NCBI RefSeq assembly: GCF_018305005.1
Contig: NZ_JAGQEG010000022.1
Location: 1-64,000 of the forward strand
Source of the DNA: Collimonas silvisoli
GTDB taxonomy: Bacteria > Pseudomonadota > Gammaproteobacteria > Burkholderiales > Burkholderiaceae_D
Length of the DNA stretch: 64,000 bases
Direction: 5' to 3'
The notes below the pieces were generated by a model. The model did no database searches and had not been told where the DNA came from. It worked only from the letters and a program-made list of their open reading frames with translations. The translations under genes and the position numbers were made by a program. Position 1 is the first letter of the stretch. Each line of letters begins with the position of its first letter. Below are positions 4,320 to 54,639 of the stretch, in pieces.

Positions 4320-4530
4320 AGCCGATTCCCGCTTCCTAACGGGGGAGGGCGGCAAATAGTAGGGTAGGAAGACCGGTACACACGGAACCCGGCAAGCCTT
4401 GCGGCTTCCCTGCTATCGCCGCCCATAGGGGCGCGCGAAGGCAGAACGAACGAGCCGTGAAGAGCGGTACGTTCGCCGGTGTAGTCAGGCTTCCCAACCT
4501 GGACCCTGTTTTTTTCAGGGACGGCAACGA
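4320..4530. other. Structured non-coding region upstream of the SymE-like gene
   Basis: About 300 bases between the SymE-like gene and the haemagglutinin fragment have no convincing gene. Several hairpins are visible. CGAACG-AG-CCG..CGG-TA-CGTTCG lies at 4447-4475, AAGCC-TTGC-GGCTT at 4394-4407, and CCCTG-TTTTTTT-CAGGG at about 4504-4520. The word TTCCCTGCT at 4406-4414 also occurs in the hairpin units near 34.7 and 54.4 kb, but no terminal repeats are seen here. The region could encode the SymE leader and an antisense RNA, or be a decayed mobile element. Confidence 0.4.
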
Positions 4531-34514: not shown

Positions 34515-34596
34515 TAGAACTCATTTCATCAATATCCGTGAGTGCGAACGCGGCGTGTGGGAGGTAGTGCAAGGCGCGTCGGGCAGCCAAGGGTGT

Positions 34597-34681
34597 CCCT
34601 TGCAGGGCGCGTTTCCGCTTGCAAGCGGAAACCGTTTCGCAGGCGGACAGCGTGCTGTCCGAATTCCCTGCTACACCCCTT
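34597..34681 (+). repeat. Three-hairpin repeat unit, copy 1 (element A)
   Basis: In order: CCCT-TGC-AGGG, a 10-bp inverted repeat TTTCCGCTTG/CAAGCGGAAA (34612-34631), linker CGTTTCGCAGG, hairpin CGGACAGC-GT-GCTGTCCG (34644-34661), then AATTCCCTGCTACACC. Copies 2 and 3 keep the linkers but change both halves of each stem together. Confidence 0.85.
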
Positions 34682-34798
34682 GGCAAGCGGCGCAACGCAG
34701 CAATACGCCCAAATAACCCGTTCCCGGAGGGTTCATGCCAGAAGAGGCGCTGGCCGCGTTGTGCTCCTTGCCAATAGCTCGCTATTGGACGCGTCGCA

Positions 34799-34882
34799 CC
34801 CTTGCAGGGCGCGTCTGCGCTGGTAGGCGCAGACCGTTACGCAGGCGCACAGCACGCTGTGCGAATTCCCTGCTCCACCCTT
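34799..34882 (+). repeat. Three-hairpin repeat unit, copy 2 (element A)
   Basis: The order is as in copy 1. Hairpin 1 is GTCTGCGC-TGGTAG-GCGCAGAC (34813-34834), linker CGTTACGCAGG, and hairpin 2 CGCACAGC-AC-GCTGTGCG (34846-34863), followed by AATTCCCTGCTCCACC. The whole unit is enclosed by the 18-bp stem 34736-34753/34884-34901. Confidence 0.85.
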
Positions 34883-34978
34883 GCCAGCGCCTCTTCTGGC
34901 AAGAACGCATCTCACGGATATTGATGAAATGAGTTCTAACTTGACCGAAGTTCGAAATTAACCATTCGAAAGAAAATC

Positions 34979-53042: not shown

Positions 53043-53546
53043 ATGCTGACAAAGCTGGCTTCCTTCACAACCAACGAGTTGCGGAAATATATGATAAAAC
53101 TTCAAGATGAACAGTGGCAAGAACTGGAACCCTTCCTGTTGGGGAAGCAGGGCGACCCTGGCGCCAACGCAAAGAACAATCGCTTGTTCATTGAGGCGGT
53201 TCTTTGGATTGTGTCGCGCAATTCTGCGTGGCGTCATTTGCCGCGGGAGTTCGGCAACTGGACTGCGGCGTATATGCGTTTCCGGCGCTGGAATGAATGC
53301 GATTTCTGGCGTCAGCTGACCCAAAGCGAAGTGAGGGATCCCGCCTTGCTGCAATTGCTGGAACGGATCGTTGACTACGGCGATCTGTATACCAGGCGCA
53401 TCGAGCAACGCCAGGAGCGGAGAATCTGCAGGACCGTGTACGAGGCGACGCTGGCTCCGGCCGACGGCGCGCAAGCTGTCAAGCAACTGGCTTTGTCGCC
53501 AAGTGAGTCGATCTTGCATTGGGTTCATCTGGTCGCGCCGCGCTAA
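53043..53546 (+). CDS. Solitary IS5-type (DUF4096) transposase N-terminal-domain protein
   Basis: Residues ~17-95 (QWQELEPFLLGKQGDPGANAKNNRLFIEAVLWIVSRNSAWRHLPREFGNWTAAYMRFRRWNECDFW) match the helix-turn-helix domain that begins IS427/IS5-type transposases. No DDE catalytic domain follows. Instead a unique C-terminus continues (LLERIVDYGDLYTRRIEQRQERR..SPSESILHW). No terminal inverted repeats were found around it. It may be a domesticated DNA-binding protein or a decayed insertion. An internal ATG at 53091 is an alternative start. Confidence 0.7.
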   Translation: MLTKLASFTTNELRKYMIKLQDEQWQELEPFLLGKQGDPGANAKNNRLFIEAVLWIVSRNSAWRHLPREFGNWTAAYMRFRRWNECDFWRQLTQSEVRDPALLQLLERIVDYGDLYTRRIEQRQERRICRTVYEATLAPADGAQAVKQLALSPSESILHWVHLVAPR

Positions 53547-54295: not shown

Positions 54296-54639
54296 TAGGG
54301 CCTGTTAACAATTGATTTGGGAGATGCGTTCCAACCAAAACGTGTGGTGGCAAGGGTGTAGCAGGGAATTCGTGCAGCACTGCTGCACGCCTGCGTAACG
54401 ATCCCGCATGCAGGCGGGTATGCGCCCTGCAAGGGCGTGGCTTGCTGGGGCTGGTGCCCCAGCAAGCCATGCAACGCGGCCAGCACACGTTTTGGTTGGA
54501 ACCCTTCGGGAACGGCTGCAGGCGTCGCATGCCGTTGTTGCAGCTCCTTGCCGTAGCACCGCTACGTCGCGTCGCTGCGCCTAGGCACGCAACGCCTGCC
54601 GCGCGTTCGCACTCACAAATCAATTGTTAACAGGCCCTA
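54296..54639. mobile_element. MITE-like non-coding element B with 22-bp terminal inverted repeats and TA flanks
   Basis: The left end 54298-54319 starts GGGCCTGTTAACAATTGATT; the right end 54616-54637 is its exact reverse complement. TA flanks both sides (54296-54297 and 54638-54639). The 340-bp interior has no gene. On the minus strand it carries one hairpin unit like those in element A. A long-range stem (54329-54350 with 54480-54501, 21 of 22 pairs) encloses that unit. A 14-bp hairpin TGGCTTGCTGGGGC/GCCCCAGCAAGCCA lies at 54438-54469 and CGTAGC-ACC-GCTACG at 54552-54566. The ends differ in sequence from those of element A although the inside is related. Confidence 0.85.
54352..54435 (-). 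repeat. Three-hairpin repeat unit, copy 3 (element B)
   Basis: Read on the minus strand: CCCTTGCAGGGCGC, hairpin 1 CCCGC-CTGCAT-GCGGG (54403-54418), linker CGTTACGCAGG identical to copy 2, hairpin 2 GTGCAGC-AGT-GCTGCAC (54372-54388), then GAATTCCCTGCTACACC. The stems differ from copies 1 and 2 but remain paired. Confidence 0.85.

Follow-up and report, generated by a model that had tools for sequence, protein, structure and literature searches.

A probable IS5-type MITE family in Collimonas, with a folded core shared beneath two unrelated types of terminal repeat

INTRODUCTION

Can one gene-less interior be carried by mobile elements whose ends have nothing in common? This question is raised by a stretch of 64,000 nt from Collimonas silvisoli (assembly GCF_018305005.1, contig NZ_JAGQEG010000022.1, positions 1 to 64,000, forward strand; hereafter, the window), in which two inverted-repeat elements, A and B, enclose similar modules between dissimilar termini. 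An earlier note, made from the letters of the window, had argued that interior modules move between end types, or that different transposases mobilise one payload, and that this payload therefore has a function; it had named as a refutation the case in which both ends derive from one insertion sequence (IS) family and the interior is its decayed transposase gene. MITEs are commonly presented as reduced versions of a single IS, to which they remain tied.

RESULTS

Structure and sites of elements A and B

Element B occupies positions 54296–54639 (+ strand) of the window and is a gene-less IS5-type mini-element with one inserted 82-nt unit; TA stands at both of its ends, and the flanks give CTAA as its target. 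Its left end (54296–54316, +; TAGGGCCTGTTAAC...) resembles IS5-family terminal repeats, and its right end (54619–54639, –) is the mirror of the left, the inverted arms (54296–54323 and 54612–54639) being 96% complementary over 28 nt and perfect over the outer 24. The DNA fold of B lies 14.2 SD below dinucleotide shuffles (z = –14.2; none of 100 shuffles as low) and takes the form of a Y, with an unpaired A in its closing stem (54324, +; GAG-A-TGCG). Arm 1 (54329–54501, +) comprises the 82-nt unit (54354–54435, +) and the GCTTGCTGGGGC hairpin, its strong hairpin having 17-nt arms (54435–54472, +); a junction mini-hairpin, CCC-TTC-GGG (54502–54510, +), stands between it and arm 2 (54511–54607, +), which holds the CTCCTTGCC hairpin.

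Element A (34515–34938, –) has the same Y architecture on the strand opposite to B, with different ends and two 82-nt units, one in arm 2 (34597–34678, –) and one in arm 1 (34799–34880, –), the latter at a GGCAAGG site, as for the unit of B. One end of A (34515–34535, +; TAGAACTCATTTCATCAATAT) matches the ends of the full-length IS5-family elements L327 and L339 described below, and the other (34918–34938, –) is its mirror copy; the inverted arms (34515–34542 and 34911–34938) are 100% complementary over 28 nt, and the DNA fold lies 12.8 SD below dinucleotide shuffles (z = –12.8; 0/100 shuffles as low). The ends of A and B had been called unrelated and perfect. Visual comparison and blastn searches against both types of insertion sequence bore out the first term, whereas the second applies in B to 24 of the 28 nt only. 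TA is indeed present at both ends of A and of B, and the interiors are related as described, through the common 82-nt unit (once in B, twice in A) and the CTCCTTGCC-stem hairpin. No unit is inverted, however: A and B lie on opposite strands, and all three units point alike in the element's own frame. The CTCCTTGCC hairpin does occur in both elements, although in different arms and in opposite orientations in that frame.

At the site of A, the sequence is uninterrupted in three relatives (G007, G011 and G002), an empty site of the kind that marks a MITE; A adds a net 424 bp there, and its left side has a TA beyond what simple TA duplication would leave. Relatives without the element were also found for the site of B, where the junction is too diverged to read, and B has the dispersed copies that are likewise a mark of MITEs. 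The genome from which the window comes (a 5.66-Mb draft of 241 contigs) contains 80 pieces matching the B sequence, many of them at contig ends, which indicates that the element breaks the assembly; in practical terms, copies of the family are so numerous in Collimonas that short-read assemblies break at them. There are also solo A-type forms of approximately 34–38 bp, mostly at TA sites, in which one end is closed by a junction sequence (TAGAACTCATTTCATCAATATCCGTGAGATGCGTTCTA or near variants; L052–L055, L183–L185 and L188).

Distribution of the family and of the 82-nt unit

Matches to B were found in 27 of 60 relatives (its own genome counted) and in 14 of the 15 genomes of the genus, the exception being the 1.7-Mb genome G001; outside the genus, many listed matches span only the 82-nt unit. 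An internal 23-nt pattern of B identified 55 stretches in named genomes, belonging to Collimonas and Herbaspirillum. Among the 14 Herbaspirillum loci, 12 have GGGCCTGTT-type ends as in B, one has diverged ends and one has no detectable ends. Elements matching arm 1 of the A core (93 nt at 76%) occur in plasmid-collection records of Burkholderia, Paraburkholderia and Caballeronia, and the five Burkholderia-group elements examined (284–316 bp; ends such as TAGGGTCTGTTTACATATGG) have a similar Y in single-sequence folds. The plasmid and phage collections gave no match to B or to an element of a third genus (g51). Judged from such matches, the family is high-copy in Collimonas, is also present in Herbaspirillum and is represented more distantly in relatives of Burkholderia. 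Of the 55 loci in named genomes, 44 could be placed relative to neighboring genes (strands ++ 16, –– 11, –+ 11 and +– 6), and, judged by a crude ORF method, all of them lie outside open frames. The third genus also contains core-less forms of 43–56 bp in which two B-type ends nearly touch (L297, L299, L300 and L305).

The 82-nt unit lies at CAAGG/CCTTG sites throughout, in arm 1 of B and in both arms of A, and most copies lack it (for example, L012 and L061). It occurs alone or within other repeats in other genera and in Collimonas G008, where it lies within other repeat families with CAGGACTTACGCAAAATCGTCCTGG... and GACGAAGACAGTACG... flanks (L154–L156 and L194–L206). The unit is a second layer on the core, and its sequence occurrences suggest a wider set of modular structured repeats. 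The idea that interior modules move between end types accordingly stood in part: the unit is found in other genera and other repeats, and the ends vary almost independently of the interior, as shown below.

A shared Y-shaped core

A-type, B-type, Herbaspirillum and third-genus elements align over their full length of 264–269 nt (n = 22, hand-picked for diversity; 23 were chosen, and one, L280, was missed by the tip rule). The common fold consists of a closing stem with the unpaired A, which is the identical letter in 22/22 elements of four lineages, two arms, and the junction mini-hairpin, the three stem pairs of which are invariant in the 22 elements while the loop varies. Across these sequences, 98.8% of cells pair, and both sides have changed in 33 of the 60 pairs, with 251 doubly changed cells, compared with 25.0 pairs and 74.2 cells in shuffled controls (0/500 shuffles reach the observed values) and at most 15 pairs and 51 cells when the partners were slid by 1–3 columns. 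One measure went the other way, the number of further standard pair types (60 observed, 66.1 shuffled, with 497 of 500 shuffles equal to or above the observed count), whereas the other four measures exceed every shuffle. Collimonas B elements taken alone (57 distinct sequences) have, in the 30-pair outer stem, 1663 Watson-Crick cells, 15 G.T, 15 A.C and 6 others, with double changes in 21 of the 30 pairs. Arm 1 contains fixed T.G and G.T mismatches (49/57 and 54/57 B sequences, respectively), and the genera agree in their junction letters and in total length.

On this alignment, the fold of the core is certainly constrained. A function of the payload, for which the earlier note had argued, does not follow: what was shown is that the fold is conserved by paired changes, and these can be explained either by selection or by arm-to-arm copying. 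Selection on RNA would be one form of the first, the core then being a functional structured RNA, or an element that stabilizes or terminates transcripts, spread by MITE ends. The two-sided pair changes seen in four lineages, the invariant unpaired A, the conserved T.G pairs of arm 1 and the constant length of the 22 aligned elements all speak for such a reading. However, the elements match no family of Rfam 15 at its gathering score, giving only weak sub-threshold hairpin matches, and the neighbor genes of the 44 placeable copies show no clear orientation bias; together with the mismatch data given below, these observations lead us to regard a structured RNA as improbable. Elsewhere in the window, at 4341–4430 (–), a C4 antisense RNA (Rfam RF01695; 58.8 bits) exceeds its gathering score.

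Full-length insertion sequences with the same ends

In genome G088, a decayed fragment lies next to a lone B-type tip; following it led first to plasmid records and then to complete elements. The full-length IS elements for each end type that the earlier note had proposed to look for were thus found for both A-type and B-type ends, outside Collimonas. B-type ends (TAGGG-CTGTT-type repeats) are carried by elements from Polaromonas (L315, 832 bp), Variovorax (L316, 832 bp), Paracoccus (L317, 824 bp) and Cupriavidus (L318, 819 bp), by two elements from the family to which Collimonas belongs (L319, 838 bp; L320, 858 bp), and by an 837-bp element of Undibacterium (L469), the ends of which, TAGGGGCTGTTAACATTCAATAAA, are perfect over 24 nt and near the Collimonas variant TAGGGCCTGTTAACATTCAATTTG (L101). 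A-type ends are carried by L327 (859 bp), from a genome of the same family, with 21-nt perfect repeats, TAGAACTCATTTCATAAATAG, equal to the end of element A, and by the similar L339, the gene of which has 12 equally scoring places in genome G064. One set of 14 IS5-like loci comprised 4 with clear ends and ten without, and in a second set of 8, clear repeats were present in L469, L472, L475 and L476, ambiguous in L471 and absent from L470, L473 and L474. Just inside the left A-type end of L327 (1336–1375) lies a B-type tip (TAGGGTCTGTTAAC), as though the present end had been placed beyond an earlier one.

In L319, L320 and L327, two overlapping frames encode proteins with DUF4096 and DDE_Tnp_1 that match the IS5 family model NF033580 of NCBIfam; for L315, this applies to the first frame. 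The IS5/IS427 group listed in Table 2 of PMC3281130 is similar, being mostly 832–865 bp long with 2-bp repeats and two overlapping ORFs, and we use the name IS427 by that description and not by ISfinder comparison. The B-type transposases of L319 and L320 are 50–54% identical, whereas the A-type transposase of L327 is approximately 26–36% identical to B-type ones. The proposal that different transposases mobilise one payload is well supported by this comparison, since the ends of A and B match two kinds of full-length IS5-family elements whose transposases, approximately 30–36% identical, would act on them. At the DNA level, the similarity of A and B to these elements is convincing only in the terminal 15–21 nt, and a tblastn comparison of four mini-elements with seven IS5 reading frames gave nothing better than E = 0.02; the interior is therefore not a decayed transposase gene. 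The refutation envisaged at the outset was thus half realized: both end types come from the IS5 family in a wide sense, yet they belong to different members whose ends are unrelated, and no trace of a transposase is seen in the interior.

Among 101 collected elements, 87 fit the tip pattern, and 58 of these have at least 16 of 18 positions in common with one or other IS end. Both tips were recognized in 86 elements. TA is missing from one or both sides in 34 of them; the other 52 have it on both, and in 41 of these the target reconstructs as YTAR (CTAG 20, TTAA 10, CTAA 8 and TTAG 3).

Several other sources of mobility were considered. An IS630/Tc1-mariner origin, which the TA target might suggest, was rejected, as DDE_3 was found in one of the 15 genomes of the genus (G005) and not in the genome of the window, and an 11-nt seed search gave no terminal repeats at the G005 locus. 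REP/REPIN elements moved by RAYT, a Y1 transposase, also form short inverted palindromes, the solo 38-bp forms (L052–L055) resemble them, and the genome that carries A and B also has a Y1 transposase gene. However, in the flanks of 14 Y1 loci from seven genomes, the only match to A, B or the unit was a 15-nt one at chance level, and a TA/YTAR target with IS5-type ends does not fit a Y1 enzyme, so that this origin is hardly credible. Some of the RAYT-like loci (L089, L091, L092, L094 and L096) have short repeats of their own, which are unrelated to A and B.

DUF4096 genes number 3–17 per genome in 14 Collimonas genomes and one in G001, apparently without IS ends. One of them, a lone gene of 167 aa (53043–53546, +) encoding the N-terminal domain of an IS5 transposase, lies 750 bp from B. 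As a resident mobiliser, this class was rejected: an 11-nt seed search of 31 loci (30 DUF4096 loci and the DDE_3 locus) gave no terminal repeats beyond chance-like ones of 11–14 nt, and the gene near B is a lone N-terminal domain. Such lone genes possibly encode domesticated DNA-binding proteins. A search for full-length IS elements with an A or B tip in four Collimonas genomes, with narrow tip patterns (exact or at most 1 mismatch), gave no pairs at IS spacing.

Joint variation of the two ends

The 24-nt terminal stems are almost free of mismatches (60 of 2064 cells in 86 B elements and 6 of 360 in 15 A elements), and the 47 B elements with perfectly paired ends comprise 33 distinct sequences. 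It is the inner part of the terminal repeat that varies most, and A varies at the corresponding place. Over 58 elements, the inner repeat on the left changes with that on the right (r = 0.93), whereas the interior is only loosely related to either end (r = 0.17 and 0.22). For example, L111 and L122 differ by 1.9% in the interior and at 4 and 5 of 12 positions in their ends, and L103 and L116 differ by 3.3% in the interior and at 7 and 7 of 12 positions in their ends. In such pairs, the ends have been replaced while the core has hardly changed.

When the demand for a stem was dropped, 128 anchored candidates divided into 104 with 21–24 of 24 pairs and 24 with at most 11, the lowest 12 of which look like false anchor pairs or a real end with the wrong partner. 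Because this split persists without the stem demand, the mirrored ends were not created by the method of collection. The inner-repeat variants match the 13 known B-type IS ends at 6.91 of 9 positions, compared with 6.50 after column shuffling (0/1000 shuffles as high) and 4.45 after shuffling within the repeat; the closeness beyond column shuffles is real but small (0.41 of 9 nt).

Could the A-type and B-type ends have diverged gradually from one ancestral IS5-type end, tracking drifting transposases without any exchange of ends? The many intermediate inner-repeat variants within each type are what such a course would leave. No intermediates between the types were found among the 101 elements (86 B and 15 A), however, each type matches its own kind of full-length IS, and near-identical interiors bear clearly different ends; we consider gradual divergence unlikely.

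The mismatches of the outer stem show no strand bias, with 16 G.T and 17 A.C in 76 elements and, as noted above, equal numbers in 57, and the single-pair steps between perfect end variants comprise 12 of transversion type and 6 of transition type. Covariation mediated by RNA wobble was rejected on these grounds, as neither the mismatch spectrum nor the excess of transversion-type steps fits selection through G.U, and both count against a structured RNA. The same two results, together with the joint change of the ends, would be expected if the near-palindromes had no function and were under no selection, being kept by arm-to-arm template switching in replication with the fold as a by-product. 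Yet the unpaired A of the closing stem has been left uncorrected in 22/22 elements, the T.G and G.T mismatches of arm 1 are fixed, junction letters and total length are conserved across genera, and one-sided changes at shared sites remain uncorrected in L058/L144 and L111/L133; template switching alone is therefore, in our estimation, rather less likely than not to suffice. The fixed mismatches and the invariant A argue against copying that corrects everything. Taken together, the lack of strand bias and the transversion excess on one side, and the uncorrected A, the arm 1 mismatches and the one-sided changes on the other, favor a DNA-level process in which the ends would be copied or co-selected while the fold of the core is kept.

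DISCUSSION

A and B probably represent one MITE family that is moved in trans by IS5-family (IS427-like) transposases and that combines exchangeable ends with a folded core, as far as can be read from the sequences. The outermost 15–21 bp of each end constitute, by comparison, an IS5-type terminal repeat, and the core lacks coding content; the end would be the changeable part of the element. A co-resident or visiting IS transposase may bind both ends, insert the element at YTAR and duplicate TA. When one end mutates or is replaced, the other may be copied from it through fold-back, that is, by template switching in the hairpin; alternatively, only elements with matching ends may go on spreading. 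Once both ends had changed together, an old core would stand under a new transposase, and the core itself would persist through its maintained fold. As a guess, the core may hold the ends together or shield the long inverted repeat from deletion.

A bolder form of this proposal, which we put forward tentatively and are inclined to doubt, is a 'chameleon' element spread throughout the Burkholderiales, in which the folded core replicates and switches transposase in a single step, a new end being transferred to both termini via fold-back copying. The hypervariable mirrored segment of the repeat would then be a record of such switches, which the core would make possible.

In the exchangeable-end MITE family preferred here, one gene-less core lies under two unrelated end types, and the ends change faster than the core and almost independently of it, yet remain mirrored. 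This could offer a parasite of a parasite a way out when its host transposase is lost, and the reason why the core keeps its fold becomes a direct question.

Our full-text literature searches found no description of the A/B repeats. Among known systems, the MITEs of IS5-family (IS427-like) elements are the most similar, sharing the IS ends, the lack of a gene, the duplication of a TA target, a high copy number and an intergenic location; the core described here, unlike theirs, is not an internally deleted IS, and a conserved Y fold is present under the unrelated ends of two IS types. The small repeats Correia, ERIC and RUP, which fold over their whole length, have TA at their termini, and RUP is tied by its ends to a known IS, whereas YPAL has no TA termini and 3–26 bp duplications (PMC2229807). 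In the tabulation of that paper, ERIC, Correia/NEMIS, RUP and YPAL each have one terminal repeat per family, in contrast to the two unrelated end types and the hypervariable mirrored inner repeat of the present family. REP/REPIN elements with RAYT are likewise palindromic, intergenic and high in copy number, but differ in enzyme class and have no matching target. TIMEs, the mini-elements derived from Tn3, are also non-autonomous and mobilised in trans, but have Tn3 ends; they are reportedly mosaic, with ends placed around random DNA instead of a conserved core that changes its ends. On the basis of these comparisons, we would class A and B as a new sort of IS5-type MITE family, one in which the ends are exchangeable and the folded core is constrained.
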